Shown here one piece after another: positions 20,182 through 32,800 of a stretch of 34,034 bases of DNA. The notes beneath the pieces were generated by a model. The model was not told the origin of the DNA, ran no database searches, and saw nothing but the letters and a program-made list of their open reading frames with translations. A program made the translations under genes and the position numbers. Origin of the DNA: a virus. The DNA lies in IMG/VR virus record IMGVR_UViG_3300025086_000009, positions 1-34,034 of that record; one strand, given 5' to 3'. Within the stretch, counting starts at the first letter, position 1. The number at the start of each line of letters is the position of its first letter.

Positions 20182-20384
20182 TCGGGTTCCTTCCCTTCGG
20201 TCAGCATACGGACAATCAGCAGCACTGCTGCGCGCTGACCTTCATTAAATGCACTATTGTATGGATTGTCCGAATACGTGGTTGTCTCAAAGCCGAACCG
20301 TGCCTTGAGGTCACTAAGTACGATCTCGCCATCGTCCGTATTAAATGTTTTACGATAGGCGAGCTTTAAATCTTCTACTTTCAT
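20178..20384 (-). CDS. Bbp19-like small phage protein
   Basis: This 68-residue protein reads KLAYRKTFNTDDGEIVLSDL, then FGFETTTYSDNPYNSAFNEG and QRAAVLLIVRML. The pattern (Gly/Glu then VLxDL, Asp-Pro-Tyr, EGxR, hydrophobic helix) matches the Bbp19 family found between portal and scaffold genes of many podoviruses (recalled). Function is not known; position suggests a head-assembly role. It overlaps the portal stop by one base and the scaffold start by 4. Confidence 0.75.
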   Translation of the reverse strand: MKVEDLKLAYRKTFNTDDGEIVLSDLKARFGFETTTYSDNPYNSAFNEGQRAAVLLIVRMLTEGKEPE

Positions 20385-21997
20385 TACTCTAGGTTTTCTA
20401 CTGGTACACTACCAGCCGCCTTGATAAATGGCGCTATTTTGTTTGCAGCTTCAGCGCTTTGCATCTGCTCTTGCACTGCCTGTTGTTGTTGTGCTGCCTC
20501 TGCCTGTTGCTGTCGCAGTTCGGCAACTTCATCATTACCGCGTATAACTCTGGCTGGTAGCCCAGCGGTCTCTACGAGGTACTGCACCATCTTATCACCG
20601 TCCAAGTAGTCGGTAACTGGTGCTACCTGGCTGACTTGCAGCAATATCTCAAACCCACGGAGCATGGCTTGTAGATCTGTAAGTTTTTGCGCTTTCGCTA
20701 GGGGGCTAACGTATTCAATATCAATGTCCTGACCTTGTAGCTCCTCAGGTGCTGGTGGGAGGAGGCCAGACCTGAGAAGCAATGCAAAGGAACGCGATAT
20801 AAGAGGCTGGAGCAATTCAGCTTGCATCCGTCCTAAAACAGGGCCAAGCAACCTCATTTTTTCTTCGTTTCTCTGCAACACTTCTGTCGCTGTCATATTC
20901 TGACCCTGACCCAAAAGCAGCTGGTCTACATAGAATGCTTGACGTATTGCACCACGCCTTTGCTCTTCCATGTTCAGCCCTAGTGGGTTGTTGGCTCCGA
21001 TTTGCAGCGGCTCAAGTCTATCTCTCGTTCCTGATCTGAAAAAGTTTAGTGCGCCCGGTGAGGTGCGTACTGTACCTAAAAAACCATCGTCTGGAACCAT
21101 CAATGGTGGATCGATTTGTTTTTGTGCAGCCTTTATTGTTGTCTCCGACATTTTGTTGAGCATCTTAACGTCAGGCAGTGCGGTCATTGCCGGACTACGC
21201 CCATAGGTACTAACGCTATCTTTTACAAAACGCGGTGACATAAACGGCATTTCGTCAAAGCCACTTTCACTAAGCAGCTCACGACTTTCTGCCATATAAT
21301 ATACAGACGCTACTGGTTTATTTTTTGCAAATGCACCAGTAGCTTCTGCACGGGGAAAAACAGCATGGATTAGCTCATGTTCTTTATACGGATCGTTATC
21401 AACATCTTTTTCTACAATCTTCGGCATTGTCGCGTCAGGAAACTGCATTTTAATAGATCGCGCGGTTAGTTTGAACTTTCGATAGATCGTATCAACACGG
21501 CCTTGCCCATCTTCTGATATATATATTTCTGCAATGTGCCGACACGCAAACCTTAGTCCGTCTGCGTCCATATCAACAAAAAAGCTGCCAGTGCCAAAAA
21601 CCACCAGGTCATAATACAGCTCGTGTATTTCCTGTTGAAAATTACTTCTATTAAAGTGCTGATACATCTGATCGGTTGATATTTCCAACCATTCATTTGC
21701 TGCATCGTCTCGTTGCAATGCCGGGTTGCGATACCGCATGGAAAACCACGGAGTGCTAGGGCTTGTTAGCATACCATGCAAGCTCGATGCCAACAGCTCT
21801 ACGGCATGTATTGCCGTACCATCGAATATAAGTTCTGTTCTTTTATCACCTTGCGTCCGTTTTTTGACAATGTCAGCTTTTCTGGGCAGCATAAAATCAG
21901 CTAGTTGCTGCCAGTGCTGTTCCCAGTTACTGCGCTGATTCTGTAGCGTTTTATAGCGCCTGTCTAATTGTGCAACGAGAGGTGTAACTTCAGCCAT
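20384..21997 (-). CDS. Portal / head-tail connector protein (T7 gp8-like)
   Basis: This 537-residue protein begins LVAQLDRRYKTLQNQRSNWE, then WQQLADFMLPRKADI, RTELIFDGTAIHAVELLASS and LHGMLTSPSTPWF, the classic start of T7-type head-tail connectors. The C-terminal region is Gln/Ala-rich (ELRQQQAEAAQQQQAV), also common. Length matches T7 gp8 (536). Twelve copies would form the channel through which terminase packages DNA. It is coupled by TAATG to the 72-aa gene upstream. Confidence 0.93.
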   Translation of the reverse strand: MAEVTPLVAQLDRRYKTLQNQRSNWEQHWQQLADFMLPRKADIVKKRTQGDKRTELIFDGTAIHAVELLASSLHGMLTSPSTPWFSMRYRNPALQRDDAANEWLEISTDQMYQHFNRSNFQQEIHELYYDLVVFGTGSFFVDMDADGLRFACRHIAEIYISEDGQGRVDTIYRKFKLTARSIKMQFPDATMPKIVEKDVDNDPYKEHELIHAVFPRAEATGAFAKNKPVASVYYMAESRELLSESGFDEMPFMSPRFVKDSVSTYGRSPAMTALPDVKMLNKMSETTIKAAQKQIDPPLMVPDDGFLGTVRTSPGALNFFRSGTRDRLEPLQIGANNPLGLNMEEQRRGAIRQAFYVDQLLLGQGQNMTATEVLQRNEEKMRLLGPVLGRMQAELLQPLISRSFALLLRSGLLPPAPEELQGQDIDIEYVSPLAKAQKLTDLQAMLRGFEILLQVSQVAPVTDYLDGDKMVQYLVETAGLPARVIRGNDEVAELRQQQAEAAQQQQAVQEQMQSAEAANKIAPFIKAAGSVPVENLE

Positions 21998-22215
21998 TAA
22001 GACATTCCATAACTATTCATTATTGTGCGTTTCGGACGAAGTTTCGGATCACGCACACCACTGAGCGCCCTTCCTTGCGTACGTCCGGCCATTTTCTGCT
22101 GCGCTCTTTCCAGCGGATCAACAGTCATCTGCCCCATCATTTGCGCTGGCTGTGCAGCAGTGCCACCCATAATACCAGCAACGTTGGTGAGCTTTTTTTT
22201 ATTACTTAACAACAT
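21997..22215 (-). CDS. Small protein with C-terminal IMNSYG tag
   Basis: This 72-residue protein is basic and Met/Gln/Gly-rich (GIMGGTAAQPAQMMGQMT). It ends in KLRPKRTIMNSYGMS. That ending matches the tails of three tiny proteins near the endolysin (IMSNYG or IMSGYG). The gene overlaps the portal start (TAATG) and follows the 209-aa gene by one base. The family is not recognised. It may be a minor virion or packaging factor, as it lies between terminase and portal. Confidence 0.75.
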   Translation of the reverse strand: MLLSNKKKLTNVAGIMGGTAAQPAQMMGQMTVDPLERAQQKMAGRTQGRALSGVRDPKLRPKRTIMNSYGMS

Positions 22216-24393: not shown

Positions 24394-24807
24394 TCAGCTA
24401 GCTTCCGCAGTGACATCACCACCTGACCACGTCAATGTTATCTGTCCAGTCTGTTGCTTATCCTCTGCCTTGTCACGTAACCCCAGTGGCTGCATCTGAC
24501 GTATGTGCTTGTCCATATGATCAGCCTGTAGCCTACGCCTCTGTACCTCTGCCATAGCCAGCTTTGGATCATCAGGTAAGGCTGCTTCCACCAAGTCTAG
24601 TATTTGATCACGCATGACTTCGCATTGAAGAGATCGAGCATTACGATATTGTGTGTATGCATCCTCATCTTCCTGGACATAACGCAGTATTGTACGCCAA
24701 GAAGGTAAGTGATCGTTCTCGTTACAAATGCGAGTAAGGCTTACACCTTCCGCTATTGCTTCGCAGATGATGACCATTTGCTCTTTTGTTACATTACGTT
24801 TTGGCAT
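24394..24807 (-). CDS. Terminase small subunit
   Basis: The 137-residue protein begins with a helix-turn-helix-like region (EQMVIICEAIAEGVSLTRIC then SWRTILRYVQEDEDAYTQYR), followed by NARSLQCEVMRDQILDLVE and a stretch with MAEVQRRRLQADHMDKHIR. This is the standard plan of phage small terminases that recognise the packaging site and recruit the large subunit. It lies just upstream of the large subunit. A terminator-like hairpin with nine T ends ten bases before its ATG, so expression probably depends on read-through or antitermination. Confidence 0.85.
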   Translation of the reverse strand: MPKRNVTKEQMVIICEAIAEGVSLTRICNENDHLPSWRTILRYVQEDEDAYTQYRNARSLQCEVMRDQILDLVEAALPDDPKLAMAEVQRRRLQADHMDKHIRQMQPLGLRDKAEDKQQTGQITLTWSGGDVTAEAS

Positions 24808-24816
24808 TGTGTACCT

Positions 24817-24893
24817 AAAAAAAAAGACCTGACTAGACTGGTTTTACAGTTTGAGACAGCATAAGCGCCAGTTGATTATGAATCTAGCCAGGT
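24817..24893 (-). terminator. Intrinsic terminator with long stem before small terminase
   Basis: The arms 24881-24893 and 24827-24839 pair over 13 bp (two G-T pairs) around a 41-base loop, directly followed by C and nine T on the minus strand. The loop is large for a terminator, so an inner fold is likely. Confidence 0.6.
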
Positions 24894-24963
24894 AAGTTAG
24901 TTGTTGAGGTATGGAATATACAGGCATTCCAGTTGTCGTGCTGACAGCTCGAACCGTTTTCTC

Positions 24964-24979
24964 GCGACAAGATATGGAG
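24964..24979 (+). repeat. Copy A of GCGACAAG...TGGAG element
   Basis: Plus strand GCGACAAGATATGGAG. It differs by one substitution from 27801-27816 and by one inserted base from 31575-31591 (minus strand), where it contains the ribosome binding sites. Here no gene follows on the plus strand; the useful sense may be the minus-strand transcript, which would be antisense to the other two. Confidence 0.85.
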
Positions 24980-25033
24980 GGAGCTGCCAGCGTTTGACAT
25001 TGATCAAACAATATCTGTCCAATCATATCATAT

Positions 25034-25066
25034 CACATACTATATTTCGTGCATCCATACAAGCAA
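25034..25066 (-). promoter_or_regulatory. Possible leftward promoter for small RNA / terminase
   Basis: Two overlapping readings on the minus strand are TTGCTT-16-TATAGT and TTGTAT-17-TATGTG. The first has the better -10. The -35 region includes GCTTGTAT, one base from the GCTTGTAA found at two other promoters. It lies just after the DUF6362-like stop. Confidence 0.4.
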
Positions 25067-25075
25067 TAGTTTTTT

Positions 25076-25507
25076 TTAACTAAAATACTCTGCAAGGATT
25101 TCGTCATCAGTATACTTTAGCTTTGCCCATAGTCTAACTAGTGCATCCTGGTAGCGTCGTTTGATCTGTCTGCCATCACGCAAACCATGCATACGTGCAA
25201 GCTTCTGCCATTGCGCGCCTCGCTCACGAAAGGCAGCGCTATGGCTAACAGCCCACACCATCTTGCGATCATCTGCGTTCATGTGCTCGATACCAAGGAT
25301 AAGAGCTCTGTCATATTGTGTTACTTGCTTGGGAGACGGTGCTGGATGTTTGGGCTTGAATTCAGAGTAACCATATGCACTCCACTGCTGTGCATACTCA
25401 GGCCATGACCCTAACTTTTGTTTTCGTATTGCTGGTGGGAGCGCACGCTCTGTTTCTGCTGCCTCAAAAAACATATCTGACAGCTGTGCTACGTCAGGGT
25501 TATCCAC
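25076..25507 (-). CDS. DUF6362-like phage protein
   Basis: The start used is GTG at 25505-25507 with GGAG eight bases upstream, giving 143 residues. A GTG at 25546 would add 13 residues but lies inside the operator cluster and lacks a binding site. The sequence has FFEAAETERALPPAIRKQK, AYGYSEFKP, then VWAVSHSAAFRERGAQWQKL and LRDGRQIKRRYQDALVRLW, matching my memory of DUF6362 proteins found near phage terminases. The RxIKRRYxDAL end looks like a DNA-binding helix-turn-helix, so a regulatory or packaging-site role is possible. The operators just upstream suggest it is a controlled gene at the boundary of early and late regions. Confidence 0.75.
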   Translation of the reverse strand: MDNPDVAQLSDMFFEAAETERALPPAIRKQKLGSWPEYAQQWSAYGYSEFKPKHPAPSPKQVTQYDRALILGIEHMNADDRKMVWAVSHSAAFRERGAQWQKLARMHGLRDGRQIKRRYQDALVRLWAKLKYTDDEILAEYFS

Positions 25508-25543
25508 AAGGTTTGCTCCGAAAAAAATATGATTGCCTATATA

Positions 25544-25565
25544 CACTTAGTGTAATCACTTAGTG
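25544..25565. promoter_or_regulatory. Operator copy 1, two CACTTAGTG half-repeats
   Basis: CACTTAGTG occurs at 25544-25552 and 25557-25565, thirteen bases apart. Each is a near-perfect dyad (CACT-N-AGTG). The 20-mer CTTAGTGTAATCACTTAGTG is repeated exactly at 25637-25656. It sits directly upstream of the DUF6362-like start. Confidence 0.75.
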
Positions 25566-25594
25566 ATAACTCTTTGTGTGTTTGTCGCGTTTGC

Positions 25595-25619
25595 AAATGA
25601 GCTATATGGATGCTCATTT
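25595..25619. promoter_or_regulatory. Perfect 8 bp inverted repeat between operators
   Basis: AAATGAGC-9-GCTCATTT lies almost midway between the two CACTTAGTG operators. The symmetric spacing suggests a second protein-binding site or part of an origin-like array. Confidence 0.7.
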
Positions 25620-25634
25620 ACAACGCTGTGTAAA

Positions 25635-25656
25635 CTCTTAGTGTAATCACTTAGTG
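25635..25656. promoter_or_regulatory. Operator copy 2, CTCTTAGTG + CACTTAGTG
   Basis: Same arrangement as copy 1, with one base changed in the first half-repeat. Copy starts are 91 bp apart, which could allow looping by a bound repressor. Confidence 0.75.
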
Positions 25657-25705
25657 TATACTGTGTTGCGACTGCGTCGATTATAAGAACGTGATTCAAA
25701 ACAGG

Positions 25706-25906
25706 TCAATCCCCTATTTTTCCACAAACGTCTAACTTGCTATTTGACGTACGTCTTCGTGTATTTACGTATAAGTTTTTTTTATTCTGCTTCGCCCGGT
25801 TGCTCTTAATCTGCTGCAATGTGGCTAGTGTGTGATCAAAATCATCATCGTCCATCCGCATCATAAACGTAATAATTTTTGATACGTTTCGTGTAGTCTC
25901 AGACAT
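25706..25906 (-). CDS. Small early protein, unknown
   Basis: The 66-residue protein begins MSETTRNVSKIITFMMRMDD and has an acidic helix (DDDDFDHTLATLQQIKS), then a basic, Asn/Lys/Arg-rich tail (NRAKQNKKNLYVNTRRR). It overlaps the preceding gene by 8 bases and is the last gene of the Cro operon before the operator region. The basic tail could bind nucleic acid. I do not recognise the family; the late part of the frame looks less constrained than the start. Confidence 0.55.
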   Translation of the reverse strand: MSETTRNVSKIITFMMRMDDDDFDHTLATLQQIKSNRAKQNKKNLYVNTRRRTSNSKLDVCGKIGD

Positions 25907-26120
25907 TTGTTATCCCCTTCGCTTCGTCCTCTGCCAGGCGTATAACCCAGCTTAACTTTAGTAATTCATCGCCCATGTCTTCAGTCACAGCGCCACTAAA
26001 CAACACCTTGTTGTATTTGTTTTCCACAGCCTCACTTGGCCTTACTGACCAGGTAGCATCGCCATCCTTCACACTAACCGTGAACAGCATATGCCCCACT
26101 GTGACTTGGCGGTTCATCAT
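25899..26120 (-). CDS. Small early protein, unknown
   Basis: The 73-residue frame reads TVGHMLFTVSVKDGDATWSV, then RPSEAVENKYNKVLFSG and DELLKLSWVIRLAEDEAKG. It looks like a small alpha/beta fold. The annotated start overlaps the upstream zinc-binding gene by 47 bases; an internal ATG at 26088-26090 would reduce this to 17. Neither has a clear Shine-Dalgarno sequence. Function unknown; it belongs to the leftward early operon after Cro. Confidence 0.6.
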   Translation of the reverse strand: MMNRQVTVGHMLFTVSVKDGDATWSVRPSEAVENKYNKVLFSGAVTEDMGDELLKLSWVIRLAEDEAKGITNV

Positions 26121-26304
26121 TCAGTACCGCATCTTCGAGCAAGCTTACCTTGCCTGACCCACCGCACACCTCACATGGAACCATCTGGACGTACTCACCG
26201 TTGTTGAATTCCGTAGGCCAATGCACGTAGTAAGTCATTTCTCTTTCTCCGTAGCCTCGACAACGTGAACACCTGACCAGTATCACATCGTCATCAGGCA
26301 TCAC
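26074..26304 (-). CDS. DnaJ-type zinc-ribbon mini-protein
   Basis: The 76-residue protein has two CxxCxGxG-type knuckles, CSRCRGYG (Cys12, Cys15) and CEVCGGSG (Cys44, Cys47), separated by 28 residues. These would coordinate one Zn2+ as in the cysteine-rich domain of DnaJ. There is no J domain. Such short zinc proteins are common in phage early regions and may act as adaptors or transcription modifiers; the target is unknown. It overlaps the nuclease gene by 4 bases, so the two are coupled. Confidence 0.8.
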   Translation of the reverse strand: MMPDDDVILVRCSRCRGYGEREMTYYVHWPTEFNNGEYVQMVPCEVCGGSGKVSLLEDAVLNDEPPSHSGAYAVHG

Positions 26305-26684
26305 TTTACCTTTAGCTTTACCAATGGCGTCAAGAACGCTGTAACGTCCTCGATGCTCTTACACAAAGCCCAAGCAAAACCAGCCTCTATAATCTGATCT
26401 CGCATACGCCTCTGGTTTTCGTTCATTACACCGCGCTTCGCTTTGAGCTCGATAAAGATTGCTTCGTTGTTGCCGCTCTTGGTTGCAGTAGAAGGACAAA
26501 ACAATTCCAGGTCAGGCCAGCCATACTTCGTACCCATTTTCTTTAGCCTGTTAATGTAGTTGATATGTCTACGCCCCTCGTTTGGACTGTGGTGGTAAAC
26601 ACACCCATCAGGCAGCGCTACATCAAGCCAGGAAGCAACCTGGCGCTGTAGATCGTCCTCAGTCACGACGCAGATAGAAGTCAT
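26301..26684 (-). CDS. VRR-NUC family nuclease
   Basis: The 127-residue protein has the PD-(D/E)XK core of VRR-NUC nucleases: HHSPNEGRR (31-39), MGTKYGWPDLELF with D58, and IFIELKAKRG with E79 and K81, followed by NQRRMRDQI and FAWALCKSIEDV. Stand-alone VRR-NUC proteins in phages are thought to cut branched DNA such as Holliday junctions. This could process recombination intermediates made by the exonuclease and ERF protein. The start overlaps the Cro-like gene by 26 bases; a GTG at residue 7 would shorten it to a more typical beginning (TEDDLQRQVASWL). Confidence 0.85.
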   Translation of the reverse strand: MTSICVVTEDDLQRQVASWLDVALPDGCVYHHSPNEGRRHINYINRLKKMGTKYGWPDLELFCPSTATKSGNNEAIFIELKAKRGVMNENQRRMRDQIIEAGFAWALCKSIEDVTAFLTPLVKLKVK

Positions 26685-26871
26685 TTGGCATCACTGCGCT
26701 ATTTGTTTTTATGACAATGCGCTCCATAAATTCTTGATTAGGTATAAGCCTTGATTTATCATCAAAACTTAAACACCAGCGACGAGCCACTGCTGCATGA
26801 CTTGCACCTAGCTGCCTTGCCAGTTCTGAATAGCTCCAGTTATTTTGCTTTCTATAATCGTCAAGTGTCAT
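26659..26871 (-). CDS. Cro-like helix-turn-helix regulator
   Basis: The 70-residue protein contains a helix-turn-helix, WSYSELARQLGASHAAVARR (about 12-31), and little else, as in Cro repressors. It is the first gene of the leftward operon. AAGGA lies before the ATG and the transcript from the predicted promoter would have a leader of only about 13 bases. It is divergent from the XRE repressor gene, so the two probably form the lysis-lysogeny switch. The cro role is inferred from layout. Confidence 0.75.
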   Translation of the reverse strand: MTLDDYRKQNNWSYSELARQLGASHAAVARRWCLSFDDKSRLIPNQEFMERIVIKTNSAVMPNDFYLRRD

Positions 26872-26890
26872 AGCAATCCTTACTGCAAGA

Positions 26891-26919
26891 ATTGTAAAAA
26901 ACTTGACTTAGATTTACAA
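26891..26919 (-). promoter_or_regulatory. Leftward early promoter (Cro operon)
   Basis: Minus strand TTGTAA (26914-26919), 17 bases, TACAAT (26891-26896). This is close to the sigma70 consensus. The -35 is part of GCTTGTAA, shared with the integrase promoter, and the -10 overlaps CAATTCTTG (26886-26894). Confidence 0.75.
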
Positions 26920-26931
26920 GCCAATTAATTG
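26903..26931 (+). promoter_or_regulatory. Possible rightward promoter overlapping the leftward one
   Basis: TTGACT (26903-26908), 17 bases, TAATTG. The spacer contains TTACAAGC. It overlaps the leftward promoter face to face, so a single bound repressor could affect both. Confidence 0.45.
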
Positions 26932-26941
26932 TAGTATCGAT

Positions 26942-26971
26942 TTGACCATTTGCGACAAGGTAAGATATTAT
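26942..26971 (+). promoter_or_regulatory. Possible repressor-maintenance promoter
   Basis: TTGACC (26942-26947), 18 bases, TATTAT (26966-26971). The spacer contains GCGACAAG (26952-26959). It lies 41 bases before the repressor ATG and also covers an upstream ATG at 26970, arguing against that start. Confidence 0.5.
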
Positions 26972-27011
26972 GCAAGCAACCATTTACAACTTGTTTAGAG
27001 AAGTAGCTATT

Positions 27012-27713
27012 ATGCCAAATAATCTCGACGCAATCATCCGCGCCAGCGGCATGAATAAAAAGCAAGTTGCGAAAGCAGCTGGCATGACCCCAGAAACACT
27101 TAGCCGACATATTCATGGCAAAGTACAAATGACGTTAGAGAATGCTGAGAGGTATGCAGAGATCCTTGGTGTATCTGTTCAAAAGATAATGTTTGTTAAT
27201 CCACCAACGCCCATCGTTGGAGAAGCAATTTTACAAGCAGACGATATTATTGTTAGAAATTTTCTAACTAAGTGGACGCGAGGTGTGCAAATCAGATCTT
27301 ATTTAGGCGATGATATATGCGCTGTTAAATATACAGCAGAGCCTGGTTATAAAGGTTATTGGTACGAATATACAGATGCTCTTTGTTTTTATCTAAAGAA
27401 ACCAATACTAGAACATTTTGTTGATAGAGGTTGTGTGCAAAACTCAAGCTTAGTCATGCTAGAAGATGAAATTAAGCTACCTAATCAAGAGCCAACGCGA
27501 CTACTTGCTGGCGTGGTATACCCAGAGCCAGGTAACCTTTATACCATAGACAGTCCTAAAAATGGTATAAACCTACGAGGACTGAAACTTGTATGGGGTA
27601 CACCATATATATCTGCATTGTTTAGACCAGATCTGCGTGGCGTTACTTATGTTGACATCGAATGTGAACACTCTGACTGTAAGGAATGCAACAATTCTTA
27701 CAGCAATTCTTGA
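27012..27713 (+). CDS. XRE-family repressor (CI-like)
   Basis: From ATG at 27012 (GAGAAG upstream) the protein has 233 residues. Residues 1-60 form an XRE helix-turn-helix: IIRASGMNKKQVAKAAGMTP and TLSRHIHGKVQM. The C-terminal part (LLAGVVYPEPGNLYTIDS, then LRGLKLVWGTPYISALFRPD) is not a recognisable S24 peptidase. I see no clear Ser/Lys pair, so RecA-driven self-cleavage is doubtful. The end has CEHSDCKEC (C-x4-C-x2-C), which could bind metal or respond to oxidation. It is divergent from Cro and precedes the early recombination operon, so it is the best candidate for the lysogeny repressor. Confidence 0.8.
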   Translation: MPNNLDAIIRASGMNKKQVAKAAGMTPETLSRHIHGKVQMTLENAERYAEILGVSVQKIMFVNPPTPIVGEAILQADDIIVRNFLTKWTRGVQIRSYLGDDICAVKYTAEPGYKGYWYEYTDALCFYLKKPILEHFVDRGCVQNSSLVMLEDEIKLPNQEPTRLLAGVVYPEPGNLYTIDSPKNGINLRGLKLVWGTPYISALFRPDLRGVTYVDIECEHSDCKECNNSYSNS

Positions 27714-27770
27714 CCGATAGTATCCAACTCTATATTCTTTTTCTTACGCATTATAAAATCAATTCTTGAC
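27692..27770. repeat. Three CAATTCTT repeats after the repressor gene
   Basis: CAATTCTT occurs at 27692-27699, CAATTCTTGAC at 27704-27714 and again at 27760-27770. The last includes the -35 of the exonuclease promoter. A fourth copy (reverse orientation, 26886-26894) covers the -10 of the Cro promoter. These may be operators of the repressor or Cro. Confidence 0.5.
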
Positions 27771-27795
27771 ATCGTTTTTACAAGCTGATTATTTA
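27766..27795 (+). promoter_or_regulatory. Promoter of the recombination operon
   Basis: TTGACA (27766-27771), 18 bases, TATTTA (27790-27795). The -35 is perfect. TTACAAGC (27778-27785) lies in the spacer, as in the promoter at 26903. Transcription would begin near the GCGACAAG element, leaving a leader of only about 20 bases. Confidence 0.65.
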
Positions 27796-27800
27796 ATCGT

Positions 27801-27816
27801 GCGACAAGAAATGGAG
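27801..27816 (+). promoter_or_regulatory. Copy C of GCGACAAG...TGGAG element: exonuclease ribosome binding site
   Basis: GCGACAAGAAATGGAG, whose GGAG is the Shine-Dalgarno sequence six bases before the exonuclease ATG. Nearly the whole predicted leader consists of this element. It is complementary in 15 of 16 positions to the minus strand at 24964-24979. Confidence 0.75.
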
Positions 27817-27822
27817 TGACTG

Positions 27823-28794
27823 ATGTTTGACATCCCACAATGGGCTGTTCGACATGACTACTTTCACCATTCTAACCCTCGTTCGGGAGACAGGGCTAAG
27901 AAGTTATTTGAGAAAGTGCATGTTAGACCAGCCCTAAAAAAAGCGTTTGATACGCTAAAAGATATTGAGGCACATGAAACCGATTTAGCTAATGCTAGGC
28001 TCACGATTGATATCTTTAAGAACAATCGTGGGTCAGCTAAAATGGCTGCTGGTAGAGCTGTGCAAGATGGTACTGATTTATGCCTAATCCCTGATGGAGA
28101 ATTTGGACAGACACTGAGCTTGCAAGAAGCGCAGCTGATAGCCAAAGAAAACCTAACAGCATACATACCTAAGAACTACGACCAAACGGTTGAGGCAAAC
28201 GATAAAGAGCAACTAGAGAAATGCCTGGAAGAAATAGATGCCGTTGTAGAGAACGCTGTGTTCGGCCTTAGAGAAGCTATGGCGCGTGACAATAGGTACA
28301 TTGGTGAGATCGAGCTTCTTGAGGCGCTCCCAGGCAACGTTCTACCACACAACACACTGCCAGACTACGGACGTAGAGGTGATCTAAAAACCAAATGGTC
28401 TGGATCTCCGTATTTTAATAAAAAAGGTGAACGTACTTGGAAAACTGGATACCTACCAAAAACCCTCTCTGGAATGTGGGATATGAACAACGTCTACCAG
28501 GCAGCTGGCTTCTATGCTCTTAACGGTAAACAACCACCGTTCTTGGTCTATGCAAATGCTTCTGACTACCGTGTGTTTGATCAAACTAATTCACCAGAGC
28601 TTACGCCTGATTTTCTAGATGACGTAGTGCGAGACATATCAATACAGCACAAGGTAACAGAGAACATACTGCGTGCAGCTGAAACAAAAGAAGAGCTGCT
28701 TGGCTTGGTATCACCAGATTGGGAACATTTTTTTTGGAAGAGTAGCAGTCCAGCGTATATCCGCGAGGCTAAGAAATTATGGGGGATGGAGTGA
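27823..28794 (+). CDS. RecB-like PD-(D/E)XK exonuclease
   Basis: The protein has 323 residues. Motifs fit RecB-type nucleases: AGRAVQDGTDLC (76-87), then GEIELLEALPG and PDYGRRGDLKTKW with D187 and K189, then VYQAAGFYAL with Q226 and Y231 (QxxxxY motif). It is the first gene of the early operon and directly precedes an ERF annealing protein. Such a pair works like lambda Exo/Beta: the exonuclease makes single-stranded tails and the annealing protein pairs them. The start codon is preceded by GGAG at six bases. Substrate and polarity cannot be read from the sequence. Confidence 0.75.
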   Translation: MFDIPQWAVRHDYFHHSNPRSGDRAKKLFEKVHVRPALKKAFDTLKDIEAHETDLANARLTIDIFKNNRGSAKMAAGRAVQDGTDLCLIPDGEFGQTLSLQEAQLIAKENLTAYIPKNYDQTVEANDKEQLEKCLEEIDAVVENAVFGLREAMARDNRYIGEIELLEALPGNVLPHNTLPDYGRRGDLKTKWSGSPYFNKKGERTWKTGYLPKTLSGMWDMNNVYQAAGFYALNGKQPPFLVYANASDYRVFDQTNSPELTPDFLDDVVRDISIQHKVTENILRAAETKEELLGLVSPDWEHFFWKSSSPAYIREAKKLWGME

Positions 28795-29465
28795 GCAACA
28801 AAGACGCAATAGCTGCACTAGCAAAAGCGCAGTCACAAATGAAAACACCGCACAAGGATGCAACTAATCCGCACTTCAGAAACAGATATGCAAGTCTGAA
28901 GTCATGTATCAAAGCAATAAAGCCAGCTCTTAATGACAATGGGTTTGCACTTATCCAGGCTGCTGGCAAAGATGACCAAGGTCACTACATACAGACTACC
29001 TTTGAGCATACCAGCGGTGGTTTGTTTAGCAGTAAGTTTTATATGGAGCCGGAAAAGAAAGGTATGCAAGGGCTAGGATCGGCTGCTACCTACGCCAAGC
29101 GCTATGGCTTGCTAGGGCTTGCTGGCATTGAGCCTGACGAGGATGCTGACGATGATGGTAATGCAGCAGATGAAAAACCAGCTACGCCTAAACCAAAACC
29201 ACAGCAAAAGAAACCTGATCCAGAAGCAACTCACGATGCAGCTGTACGTGAGGAGCAAAACAGTGCGTCTACTTCACCGCAACAACTTAAAGAAATGATA
29301 GAGAATAAGATTAAGTTAGCTTCAGCTACATGGCAGTTAAAAGAAATGACAAAAAAACACGGCAAGGATTTTAACACCATAAAGCAACACGATGCAAAAA
29401 TGGGTGCTGAACTAAACGCATACTTTAAAACAAGATTTGAACAACTGAACACTGGGGAAAGATAA
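28779..29465 (+). CDS. erf: ERF-family single-strand annealing protein
   Basis: The 228-residue protein has the ERF core: ALAKAQSQMKTPHKDATNPH, then FRNRYASLKSCIKAIKPAL and the signature GLGSAATYAKRYGLLGLAGI followed by EDADDDGN. A charged linker (about 128-165, Pro/Lys/Gln-rich) leads to a C-terminal helical part. It anneals complementary single strands in phage recombination and probably circularises or repairs the genome. The start overlaps the exonuclease stop by 16 bases; GTG at 28791, overlapping the stop as GTGA with a G-rich stretch upstream, is an equally good start. Confidence 0.9.
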   Translation: MGDGVSNKDAIAALAKAQSQMKTPHKDATNPHFRNRYASLKSCIKAIKPALNDNGFALIQAAGKDDQGHYIQTTFEHTSGGLFSSKFYMEPEKKGMQGLGSAATYAKRYGLLGLAGIEPDEDADDDGNAADEKPATPKPKPQQKKPDPEATHDAAVREEQNSASTSPQQLKEMIENKIKLASATWQLKEMTKKHGKDFNTIKQHDAKMGAELNAYFKTRFEQLNTGER

Positions 29466-29818
29466 TGAAAATTGATAAAAGCATACCAGTACCACCAGGC
29501 AACGGAAATGGTAGAAGTGGTAAATACTCTGAAACTGCAAGACAAATGGAAATAGGCGATAGCGTTGGTGGGTTAGATATAAAAAATAGATTAGGATTAA
29601 TTAATGCTTTGAAAAGCGCATACCAAAGAAAAGAATTCGTAGTAGTAAATGCTAATCGTAGAAGAGAATTTAGGGTTATGAACAAAGTTTATCGTTCTAT
29701 GATTCAAGATGATGGAACTTACAGAGTTTGGAGAGTTGATATGCCGACAAAGTATGCAGAGTTTAAAATTGAACAAATACAAGATTATCACATGCAGAAA
29801 ACAGGAAACGAAAAATAA
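29465..29818 (+). CDS. Small recombination-operon protein (DUF7303-like)
   Basis: The 117-residue protein begins MKIDKSIPVPPGNGNGRSGK, then ARQMEIGDSVGGLD, and later TYRVWRVDMPTK. The pattern (IPVP, Gly-rich basic stretch, MEIGDS, RVWR) is one I recall from small phage proteins annotated as DUF7303. These are often near replication or recombination genes and are possibly DNA-binding. The basic Gly/Arg N-terminus fits nucleic-acid contact. It overlaps ERF by one base and the next gene by one base. Confidence 0.6.
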   Translation: MKIDKSIPVPPGNGNGRSGKYSETARQMEIGDSVGGLDIKNRLGLINALKSAYQRKEFVVVNANRRREFRVMNKVYRSMIQDDGTYRVWRVDMPTKYAEFKIEQIQDYHMQKTGNEK

Positions 29819-30216
29819 TGCCACATTTTGGAAAGAGTAACCACCAATTCAGAACAAGCTTAGATAGTACAAAACAATATCGTATTACTGCTTGGCTAAG
29901 TTTTAAACAAACCTGGAATGATGCAGAAAAAAGGTTTGAAAGAAACACACCAGAAGAAATAAGTGTGTGTCGTAAGTTGTATGAACAGCTCGCGCAGCAT
30001 CCCGGTCTACAGTTGCAGCTTAACATTGATGAAAGAATACGTGACGTAGACGATGTTAAACAATTTCCACGAGCTGCTATTGTAAATTTATATGTGAGCA
30101 ACATGCAAAAACCAGAGTATCAACAGCCAACAGCTGCTGTAGAAACGTCATTAGATCTAGATGATGAAATACCTTTTGGTAATGATGCTGATGATGAATT
30201 CGTGGGGTTTGAGTGA
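29818..30216 (+). CDS. Possible single-stranded-DNA-binding protein
   Basis: The 132-residue protein has a polar N-terminal domain (YRITAWLSFKQTWNDAEKRF, then PRAAIVNLYVSNMQ). Its acidic tail contains DLDDEIPFGNDADDEF. The phrase DDEIPF resembles the C-terminal tip of bacterial SSB (DDDIPF), which recruits partner proteins, although here about 14 residues follow it. Position after exonuclease, ERF and a DUF7303-like gene supports an SSB-like role. An OB fold cannot be confirmed by eye, so this is an inference from tail and context. Confidence 0.5.
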   Translation: MPHFGKSNHQFRTSLDSTKQYRITAWLSFKQTWNDAEKRFERNTPEEISVCRKLYEQLAQHPGLQLQLNIDERIRDVDDVKQFPRAAIVNLYVSNMQKPEYQQPTAAVETSLDLDDEIPFGNDADDEFVGFE

Positions 30217-30446
30217 TGACAGACAAACATCTACTTAGCGTTAAAGACGCTGCACAATTTCTGTTTGGTGATTACGACAGAACGCATCAAGATCGCACCA
30301 GGCGATTAATAAATCAGCTTAAAGTTAAACAAATTGTTATAGGTAAAAGAACATTTGTTGTTAAAAATGAGTTAGCTGACAAGCTGGAGATTAACTTGTC
30401 AGCTGAACCTAGCGATAAGGTAGTGCAACTAAAAGATCGCGGATAG
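30213..30446 (+). CDS. Excisionase-like DNA-binding protein
   Basis: The 77-residue protein has a winged-helix excisionase pattern: LLSVKDAAQFLFGDYDRTHQ, then TRRLINQLKVKQIVIGKRTF. Similar AlpA/Xis-like proteins direct the integrase to excise the prophage. It is the last gene of the rightward early operon and faces the integrase: its last 18 bases overlap the integrase 3' end on the other strand. This makes excisionase and integrase transcripts antisense to each other. It overlaps the preceding gene by 4 bases. Confidence 0.7.
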   Translation: MMTDKHLLSVKDAAQFLFGDYDRTHQDRTRRLINQLKVKQIVIGKRTFVVKNELADKLEINLSAEPSDKVVQLKDRG

Positions 30447-31568
30447 CTTATCTACAGCAGCTGCATTGTCAGCGTCTGACTCTAACCAGTGACCGTATAT
30501 GCCTTGTGTAACACGGATGTCGCTGTGACCCATATATGTTTTTACACGCCACAGATCGTCAGGGTACGCTTGGAGAAGCTTAGATGCATAGTAGTGTCTA
30601 AGCTCATGCCAAGTAATAGGTGCAACACCAGCGCGTCTACAAGCGTCCTTGATGCGCTTTAGATACTTCGCTGATGTAACTGGGTGATTAAACTCTGTGC
30701 CAAAGACAAGCGTGTCAGGATCGTTTGGTCTACCTTGCTGTATGTACAGCTCTTTGAGTTGTGCAAGTACATCGCGTGTTAGCGGTATTGTACGCAACCC
30801 GGAGTAAGTTTTAGGATCTTTAACATTAGTAGTTTTGTGTTCGATAGCGCGATCAACAACCACCTTGCCACCGTCTAGATCTACTTGCCCCCAAGTCATT
30901 GCGCGTTGCTCGCCCTGACGCACACCAGTAGTTGATGCAAACCTGGCAAAGAACTGCCATCGAGGACACAGCTGAGATATAATGCTGTTGATGACATCAG
31001 TTGCAATGCGCTGCGCTTTAGTCTCGCCAGCACTGCTTTGTATTTCACCTTTGCGCTTCACACCATCAAATGGATTAGTTTCTCTACAACCCTCAATGAT
31101 AGCGTAGTTGATCATCATGCCTATTGAGCCACAAATGTTTGTGACAGTTTTGACTTTGCGACCAACTTTAAGCTGATCCATAATCTGGTGTGCGACCATA
31201 CCCTTTGTAAGATTTGCAACACGCATGTCAGCAACGGACATACCATCGACAACGCAATCTAAAAAACACTCTACGTGTCTAACTTTTTCCTGGTGGTAAC
31301 TTTTTGATTGCTCGCCAGCACGATATTCTTTTTCAACTTGTGCAATGTAATTTTTTCCAAGCTCGTAGAATGACCACTTCCAGGCATCACTAGATTTATT
31401 AGTGTCTGATGTTTCTTTCACAAGTGCATCGATAGCAGCTTGTGCTTGCTCACGTGTTTGATAAAATTGTTGTGATCCGTTCTGTAATTCAGATCGCGTA
31501 TCGACACACCAAGAAGCCCAACCTTTTTTTGCTCTTGATGCGTATCTTTTAGGTGAAACTTGTAACAT
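30429..31568 (-). CDS. int: Tyrosine-recombinase integrase
   Basis: From ATG at 31568 (GGAG six bases upstream) the protein has 379 residues. An upstream ATG at 31580 lies inside the ribosome binding element and is less likely. Catalytic residues are in place: R217 (TGVRQGE), K253 (DPKTYSG), H321 and R324 (HELRHYY), H348 (MGHSD) and Y358 (IYGHW). The N-terminal 60 residues include an arm-binding-type segment (RYASRAKKGWASW). It integrates the phage at the attP core 160 bases upstream, matching a tRNA 3' end. It is transcribed from its own promoter and meets the excisionase gene head-on. Confidence 0.93.
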   Translation of the reverse strand: MLQVSPKRYASRAKKGWASWCVDTRSELQNGSQQFYQTREQAQAAIDALVKETSDTNKSSDAWKWSFYELGKNYIAQVEKEYRAGEQSKSYHQEKVRHVECFLDCVVDGMSVADMRVANLTKGMVAHQIMDQLKVGRKVKTVTNICGSIGMMINYAIIEGCRETNPFDGVKRKGEIQSSAGETKAQRIATDVINSIISQLCPRWQFFARFASTTGVRQGEQRAMTWGQVDLDGGKVVVDRAIEHKTTNVKDPKTYSGLRTIPLTRDVLAQLKELYIQQGRPNDPDTLVFGTEFNHPVTSAKYLKRIKDACRRAGVAPITWHELRHYYASKLLQAYPDDLWRVKTYMGHSDIRVTQGIYGHWLESDADNAAAVDKLSAIF

Positions 31569-31574
31569 AATAAT

Positions 31575-31591
31575 CTCCATATTCTTGTCGC
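31575..31591 (-). promoter_or_regulatory. Copy D of GCGACAAG...TGGAG element: integrase ribosome binding site
   Basis: Minus strand GCGACAAGAATATGGAG, with GGAG six bases before the integrase ATG, the same spacing as for the exonuclease. It is complementary to the minus strand at 24964-24979 over 16 bases with one bulged base. Confidence 0.75.
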
Positions 31592-31727: not shown

Positions 31728-31752
31728 TGGCGCGGTTGACGGGGCTCGAACC
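31728..31752 (-). other. attP: attP core: 25-base copy of a tRNA 3' end (probably tRNA-Asp)
   Basis: Minus strand 31752 to 31728 reads as a tRNA 3' end: G53, T-loop TTCGAGC, stem strand CCCGT, acceptor strand CAACCGC, discriminator G and CCA. The bases upstream (TCAG) would not pair properly with CCCGT, so similarity stops at the T-stem, as in an att core. G73 and the CCCGT stem match bacterial tRNA-Asp (E. coli has TTCGAGT-CCCGT and G73); the predicted acceptor is GCGGTTG. Integration would restore the host tRNA. It lies upstream of int, the normal place for attP. Confidence 0.75.
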
Positions 31753-31845
31753 TGACAAATAGCTGTTTACATTGCATTTTTCTACAGTTTTTGCGCCATC
31801 TTGCACCACTTCGCGCATAGGTGTGCATAGGCGTGTGTGATGGAA

Positions 31846-32304: not shown

Positions 32305-32463
32305 CTACGCTGTTTTCTTTTTAGGTTTCTTGGCAGTCTTTGCAGCATCTTTAAAATTTTGTGCTGTAGGCGCACCAGCAGATCCTACCTTACGCATCTT
32401 TTCGCCAGAACCAGCTGCAATGCGTTTGCGTTTTTTATGAATGTTTTCGTATAGACCTGGCAT
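32305..32463 (-). CDS. 52-aa basic protein (MPGLYENIHKKR type)
   Basis: The protein begins MPGLYENIHKKRKRIAAGSG, then EKMRKVGSAGAPTAQNF, and ends in a Lys-rich tail. This sequence type (IHxKRxRIAAGSGEKMR) recurs as a tiny conserved protein of podoviruses (recalled). AAGGAG lies six bases before the ATG and the start overlaps the previous stop as TGATG. It is too short for common ORF cut-offs. Function unknown; the conserved GSGEKMR suggests a definite role, perhaps structural. Confidence 0.8.
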   Translation of the reverse strand: MPGLYENIHKKRKRIAAGSGEKMRKVGSAGAPTAQNFKDAAKTAKKPKKKTA

Positions 32464-32624
32464 CAGGCGCTCCTTCCGTAGTTGCTCATTATGTTTTTCT
32501 TTTTAGTCGGCTTCTTTTTAAGCGCAGCAAAATCAGCACCAGTTATTTCATCCATTGGTGCAGCAGCTGATGCAATCTTCATTTGCTTTGGCGAAAGCTT
32601 TTTAGTCATTTTCATTCCCGGCAT
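32463..32624 (-). CDS. 53-aa protein with IMSNYG tag
   Basis: The protein begins MPGMKMTKKLSPKQMKIASA and ends KKKNIMSNYGRSA. The start has AAGGGA upstream and overlaps the previous TAA. The last codons (TAC GGA AGG AGC) also supply the Shine-Dalgarno sequence of the next gene. Its tail is shared with the 58-aa, 20-aa and 72-aa proteins. Function unknown. Confidence 0.8.
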   Translation of the reverse strand: MPGMKMTKKLSPKQMKIASAAAPMDEITGADFAALKKKPTKKKNIMSNYGRSA

Positions 32625-32800
32625 TACTTTCCCTTTCCGTAATTTGACATAATATTTTTTTTCTTAGGTTTACTGTGAGTAAGCACCTGACTGCTTTTAG
32701 AATGCTTGGCTCCAGTGTGCAGTGTACCGTCAGGCATTTTATGCGTTGCGCCTTTGTACAGTTTGCCGGACGGTAAATAGTGAGGTTTACCAGCTGCCAT
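32624..32800 (-). CDS. 58-aa protein with IMSNYG tag
   Basis: The protein reads MAAGKPHYLPSGKLYKGATH, then KMPDGTLHTGAKHSKSS, and ends PKKKNIMSNYGKGK. The His/Lys/Gly-rich MPDGTLHTGxxHxKSS segment is one I recall from small proteins of marine phages. It is coupled on both sides by TAATG overlaps. The final codons form a GGAAAGGGAAAG ribosome binding site for the next gene. Function unknown. Confidence 0.8.
   Translation of the reverse strand: MAAGKPHYLPSGKLYKGATHKMPDGTLHTGAKHSKSSQVLTHSKPKKKNIMSNYGKGK

Follow-up and report, generated by a model that had tools for sequence, protein, structure and literature searches.

In the present study, we analysed a 34,034-base stretch of DNA from a temperate phage (IMG/VR record IMGVR_UViG_3300025086_000009, positions 1-34,034; here called the window), and the best reading of the gap before its terminase genes, which we consider probable from sequence comparison, is that it encodes a trans-acting small RNA, the leader of the late operon, which silences lysogeny and early genes. 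This reading is carried by a promoter, a terminator, two covarying helices, an antisense match over two target features and co-change of the loop with its targets in relatives. The structured non-coding leader RNA would begin at the leftward late promoter and end at an intrinsic terminator before the gene for the terminase small subunit (terS). Once transcribed, its hairpin loop would pair in trans, in the cell, with the leaders of the integrase (int), the CI-like repressor (rep) and, in the window's clade, the gene in the exonuclease position (exo). The pairing would span the right half of the repressor operator, as transcribed into the leader, together with the Shine-Dalgarno (SD) sequence, and because it lies over the SD, ribosome binding should be blocked. 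Firing of the late promoter would damp integration, repressor synthesis and early recombination together by translational silencing, and readthrough of the terminator would yield the late mRNA, perhaps via the adjacent DUF6362 protein.

Genome setting

The minus strand carries a late operon with the small and large terminase subunits and a head-tail connector, and then DUF6362. The terS gene (24394..24807, minus strand; Pfam Sf6_terminase, E 6e-21) is the first gene past the RNA terminator, and the gene of the DUF6362 / phrog_6836 protein (25076..25546, minus strand; Pfam PF19889, E 1.5e-11) adjoins the late promoter. By its position, the DUF6362 protein is a candidate late regulator. Its AlphaFold model (pLDDT 79.5) gave no PDB fold match at E <1, and there was no sequence match among solved structures, so that it could not be recognised as a Q protein or as any other known fold. 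Several close relatives have a stop within the 5' extension of the frame 25076-25546, so the true start is placed near 25507.

In the immunity region, a small Cro-like HTH protein (26659..26871, minus strand; HTH matches weak, under the cut-offs) lies back to back with the CI-like repressor (26970..27713, plus strand; Pfam HTH_26, E 2e-8). The repressor is 34-100% identical among relatives whose neighbour genes are 75-100% identical, a pattern that points to swapped immunity modules. The exo-position gene (27823..28794) and Erf follow on the plus strand. A first-pass annotation had called this gene an exonuclease; the label follows only from the position before Erf, and Pfam and PHROGs searches gave no match for 27823-28794, which is 35-98% conserved in viral contigs. 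The tyrosine integrase is encoded on the minus strand (30429..31568; Pfam Phage_integrase, E 3e-22). Beside it, the plus-strand sequence gcgcggttgacggggctcgaacc at 31730-31765 corresponds on the minus strand to the 3' part of a tRNA; the same stretch also lies beside the integrase in the contig L101, and it is likely the attP core of a phage that integrates into a tRNA gene. In addition, several small proteins at 20384-22215 and 32305-32800 end in a repeated tail of the (NIM)(N)SNYG/NSYGMS-like kind, which continues into the start codon that follows.

The portal protein is 58-60% identical to the portals of Pelagibacter phages, and our guess for the host is a marine alphaproteobacterium. Among cultured phages there was no close relative; DUF6362 was absent from them, and no related DNA was found over 24394-30446. 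Scans of bacterial genomes with exo and DUF6362 gave no integrated relative.

A probable structured RNA in the gap before terS

The gap (24,808-25,075) is kept in every relative aligned, these being a graded series from scans of viral contigs. In the 22 aligned gap sequences, window included, the region from promoter through terminator is conserved with small indels. In many relatives the indels are not multiples of three, which rules out small coding genes in the gap (24844-25026 minus, 24901-25083 plus) and agrees with the first-pass annotation, in which the gap had no gene. Rfam gave no match over the window at the gathering score, and over 24700-25100 there was no match even at E up to 1.

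The late promoter (25022..25066, minus strand; conserved in relatives) consists of a CTTG..TGGATGCACGAAATATAGTA block and a TATGAT -10. A promoter had been proposed at 25034-25066; that region is conserved, but the better -10 lies further on, at 25022-25027, where relatives have TATACT or TATAAT. With the -10 at this place the 5' end of the RNA falls near 25015. A CTTGnnnGAATGCACGAAATGTAGTA-like block with a TATAAT-like -10 is kept even in relatives with just 55-65% identity in DUF6362. The promoter lacks a good -35 and probably depends on an activator or an antiterminator. By sequence, the conserved late promoter start and the terminator before the first late gene make this a candidate late leader of the pR'-tR' type.

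The proposed RNA of about 200 nt (24817..25015, minus strand; 5' end placed from the -10) would thus extend from promoter to terminator and contain two covarying helices. Hairpin 1 has its 5' arm at 24981..24991 and its 3' arm at 24940..24950 (minus strand; MFE and alifold), with 10 consensus pairs, two of them changed on both sides. The terminator hairpin (24828..24894, minus strand) has arms at 24882-24894 and 24828-24840, with 12 pairs in alignment A2 and none broken, and is followed by nine U (24825-24817), of which U5 or longer is kept in relatives. The stem and nine T reported before the terminase gene are real features of the sequence and conserved. The consensus structure of 17 sequences consists of the 10-bp hairpin and the 12-bp terminator helix; over these 22 pairs, 100% of cells are paired and 4/22 pairs have changed on both sides. 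Slid controls gave no two-sided pair changes, the covariation score was reached by 0/500 shuffles, and the gap sequence of the window folds at z -4.0 against shuffles.

The pairing element CUCCAUAUCUUGUCGC (24964..24979, minus strand) lies in the loop of hairpin 1. Its CUCC and UUGUCGC are invariant across the 17 sequences, and the linker between them (4-6 nt) varies in length and sequence. An extra small stem is predicted inside the loop. It leaves UCGC unpaired, or UCG alone in the window lineage, so pairing may begin there; the remainder of the element is partly paired in the prediction, with only a few bases clearly open. In L086, L093, L099, L112, L118, L156 and others, a ACCUCCCUG-like anti-SD stretch lies between the hairpin and the terminator before terS. 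This stretch is present in most distant relatives, even those without the hairpin loop motif, and is possibly a second, older pairing site.

Proposed target leaders of exo, int and rep

The minus strand at 24964-24979 reads CTCCATATCTTGTCGC, and complementary elements were found where the first-pass annotation had placed them, at 27801-27816 (one mismatch) and 31575-31591 (one bulged base). With up to 3 mismatches allowed, the window holds 3 matches where 0.22 would be expected, and 0/100 shuffles reached 3. The exact GCGACAAG is present at just 4 sites in 34 kb, all in regulatory gaps: 24964 (the gap), 26952-26959 (rep leader), 27801 (exo leader) and 31584 on the minus strand (int leader). 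Chance likeness combined with shared purine-rich ribosome binding sites is very improbable: GGAG is widespread as an SD, and the SD accounts for four of the matched bases, but the number of matches, the confinement of GCGACAAG to four regulatory sites, the conservation and the preference for cognate targets all argue against it.

The exo-leader target GCGACAAGAAATGGAG (27801..27816, plus strand) and the int-leader target GCGACAAGAATATGGAG (31575..31591, minus strand) both include the SD, with GGAG six bases 5' of the ATG. This spacing had been noticed before, and for the integrase it holds with the ATG at 31568, not with the ORF-caller start at 31580. In the close clade, exo and int leaders have the form GCGACAAG-A/AT/AAT-ATGGAG. 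A prediction of RNA pairing against both leaders, proposed as a check in the first-pass annotation, came out in favour of pairing: the duplex with the whole exo leader has -50.0 kcal/mol and was equalled by 0/200 shuffled RNAs, and the int leader gave 3/200. Apart from itself, the gap element finds its best match anywhere in the window in the exo leader, and this match continues through the start codon; exo is a target in the window's clade only.

The repressor had been missed as a target. Its leader has GCGACAAGGTA (26952..26962, plus strand), 11 bp with one G-U, over AAGG, the likely SD. The sequence GCGACAAGG is found in 17/20 of the rep leaders listed, window included, and the remaining 3/20 have CGACAAGG, GCGACAAAG or, in one case, a start that is misplaced by more than 17 codons. 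Since nearly every close-clade relative has the element in the leader of its CI-like repressor, we take rep as a third likely target. When the 41 leaders of the window are ranked by the preference of the loop, exo comes first, int second and rep fourth.

In the shuffled-RNA test rep gave 4/200 in the window. In relatives, the int pairing gave 0/200 in both L012 and L035 and 0/400 in L105 and L156; L160 rep gave 0/400, and int and rep of L103 gave 1/400 each. The rep pairing is weak by energy in several close relatives (L012 12/200, L035 35/200, L008 31/200) and in L105 (35/400). The rep of L085 was left out of these tests, because the sequence picked there was simply the repressor leader in antisense. 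The int leaders of L088, L092, L101 and L105 contain an inverted repeat (CTCTCCAAAA-TTGCTAT / ATAGCGACAACTTTTTTGGAGA), which could fold over the leader's own SD if transcription begins upstream.

Loop and target changes in relatives

Covarying changes in related phages had been named as a further check, and they were found in three clades: that of the window (W) and two distant ones, clade C (L093, L099, L103, L105 and L160) and clade E (L156). In clade C the loop reads GUUCUCC..GUUGUCGC, also as GUUCUCC..GGUUGUCGC, against GCGACAA..GGAGAAC in the int and rep leaders, and the additional AAC of GGAGAAC is matched by the loop. The loop UCCUCCAUUGAUGCUACAA of clade E stands against the int leader UUGUAGCGUCA..AAUGGAGGA, in which the operator half and the SD flank are both altered along with the loop. 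Within clade W, matched changes of the exo leader were seen in L016 and in the L005/L033 lineage, where the gap of L005 is cut off and is represented by that of L033, whose DUF6362 sequence is identical. Permuted pairs of loop and target were as good as the cognate ones in 0/20000 permutations for rep, 46/20000 for int and 143/20000 for exo, in tests which, like the shuffles, ignore the relatedness of the contigs. GCGACAA occurs in a leader of 20/22 contigs with the loop motif (setting aside the motif contig L190, whose match is outside a leader) and of 0/20 without it, a contrast that we down-weight to few independent events because the contigs with a TTGTCGC loop and GCGACAA target mostly form one clade of the terS tree.

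The co-change is not without exceptions. The rep of L024 and the exo of L026 no longer have the exact target, and a single mismatch is present in the int of L085. For the phages L086, L091, L152 and L154, the loop leads one to expect UGUAGCGUCA, AACGACAAAG and UGUAGCGACAAGG in int leaders; UGUAGCGUCA, predicted beforehand from the loop of L086, is absent from the int leader of its nearest sibling L087 (int 92% identical), and among the siblings of L086, L091 and L154 no contig with both the RNA and the int leader was found. Furthermore, a list of 49 contigs obtained by pattern matching was rejected as partly chance: 26/39 new loci were without any of the genes, and 1/39 had a distant integrase only.

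A leader RNA without targets in trans, serving only termination and antitermination of the late operon as in the pR'-tR' region of lambda, is the alternative that survives best, and we regard it as unlikely. The antisense match would then be the relic of a duplicated leader. Consistent with this, the order DUF6362, promoter, short leader, terminator, terS is conserved also where the antisense loop is missing, and the gap element resembles the exo leader past the element itself, as a duplicate would. However, the invariant parts of the loop are those antisense to the operator half and the SD, and loop and targets shift in step in clades C and E and within W. These observations argue for an RNA that would act in trans. 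The first-pass proposal of such an RNA over the SDs of int and exo gains from the structure, the promoter, the terminator and the co-change; it did not include the repressor, nor the placement of the pairing part in a hairpin loop.

The putative repressor operator

In relatives, GCGACAA is seen to form the right half of a DNA operator, TTGAC-N7-GWCAA. Full dyads are present in rep leaders, in many int leaders and, in most relatives, upstream of the late promoter. In the window, the putative operator TTGACCATTTGCGACAA in the repressor leader (26942..26958, plus strand) is an exact dyad with both half-sites and recurs in relatives. A search of the whole window gave 7 operator-like dyads against 4.9 expected, and with no excess a lone dyad outside leaders is weak evidence.

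The first-pass annotation had named a DNA operator as the rival view, namely that the gap element is a site for a CI/Cro-type protein controlling late transcription, like the sites in rep and int leaders. By sequence, the idea held good for rep and many int leaders, but for the gap copy it is quite improbable. In 15 distinct gap copies, only 0-2 of 5 bases agree with the left half TTGAC, as chance would give; with the left half missing in 15/15, an operator at this place was rejected. In addition, the match reaches into GGAG, beyond the operator, the gap copy is antisense and within the loop of a covarying RNA hairpin, and in many relatives a proper dyad is found at another place, on the upstream side of the late promoter. 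The target letters themselves are half of an operator dyad, so RNA and operator are not exclusive of each other.

With an operator downstream of the start sites of repressor-controlled genes, their mRNAs would carry the half-site beside the SD. We put forward, with about even confidence, the broader idea that the trans-acting late-leader RNA reads the operator of the repressor as RNA: the antisense of the half-site would be a common seed against the operator-controlled lysogeny genes at late onset, and operators and seed would co-evolve in a broad range of uncultured marine phages. The proposed RNA, if real, would place a lysis-lysogeny switch of the post-transcriptional kind within the late leader itself, and it would answer how temperate phages cease making lysogeny proteins after late onset. 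It would also explain the shift of the half-site in leaders from the symmetric GTCAA toward GACAA, and give a role to terminated late leaders of the lambda 6S kind.

Comparison with known systems

No phage small RNA acting on an integrase, and no report on DUF6362, was found in the literature searched, which is no proof of novelty. The small RNA StxS comes from the late PR'-tR' leader of Stx phage and silences stx1B by binding its ribosome binding site in trans; it also targets the host rpoS, and it is produced in lysogeny and undergoes RNase E processing with Hfq (PMC7873438). The RNA predicted here would likewise be the leader of a phage late promoter, end at a terminator and bind ribosome binding sites, a likeness in position and proposed mode of action. 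Unlike StxS, with its toxin gene and host rpoS, it would probably act on genes of the phage itself, namely the integrase, the repressor and the exo-position gene. The lambda 6S RNA, the pR'-tR' leader, is Hfq-dependent, and in a review its function is given as unexplored and no target is assigned (PMC12197685). It resembles the present case as a short terminated leader of the late operon adjoining the gene of a late regulator, for which DUF6362 is the candidate here; the difference is that targets are proposed here.

P22 sar, P1/P7 c4 and lambda OOP pair with translation start regions and control ant or cII (PMC12197685). They share with the proposed RNA the antisense control of a phage regulator; however, the genes of sar and OOP lie close to the target, while here an RNA from a distant locus would act on several unlinked leaders that share an operator half. 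In the sib retroregulation of lambda, int is lowered post-transcriptionally during lytic growth, in cis, from the 3' side and by RNase III. Both systems would lower the integrase after transcription, and the proposed RNA would do so in trans at the 5' leader. Alphaproteobacterial small RNAs carry anti-SD loops, for example CUCCUCCC motifs. The C/U-rich anti-SD stretch in the loop is of the same kind, and CCUCCC is present in the leaders of many relatives; unlike in those RNAs, the anti-SD part is here joined to a target-specific part antisense to the operator. What would be new in the present case is the use of the phage's own lysogeny genes as targets, together with a seed made of an operator half plus anti-SD.
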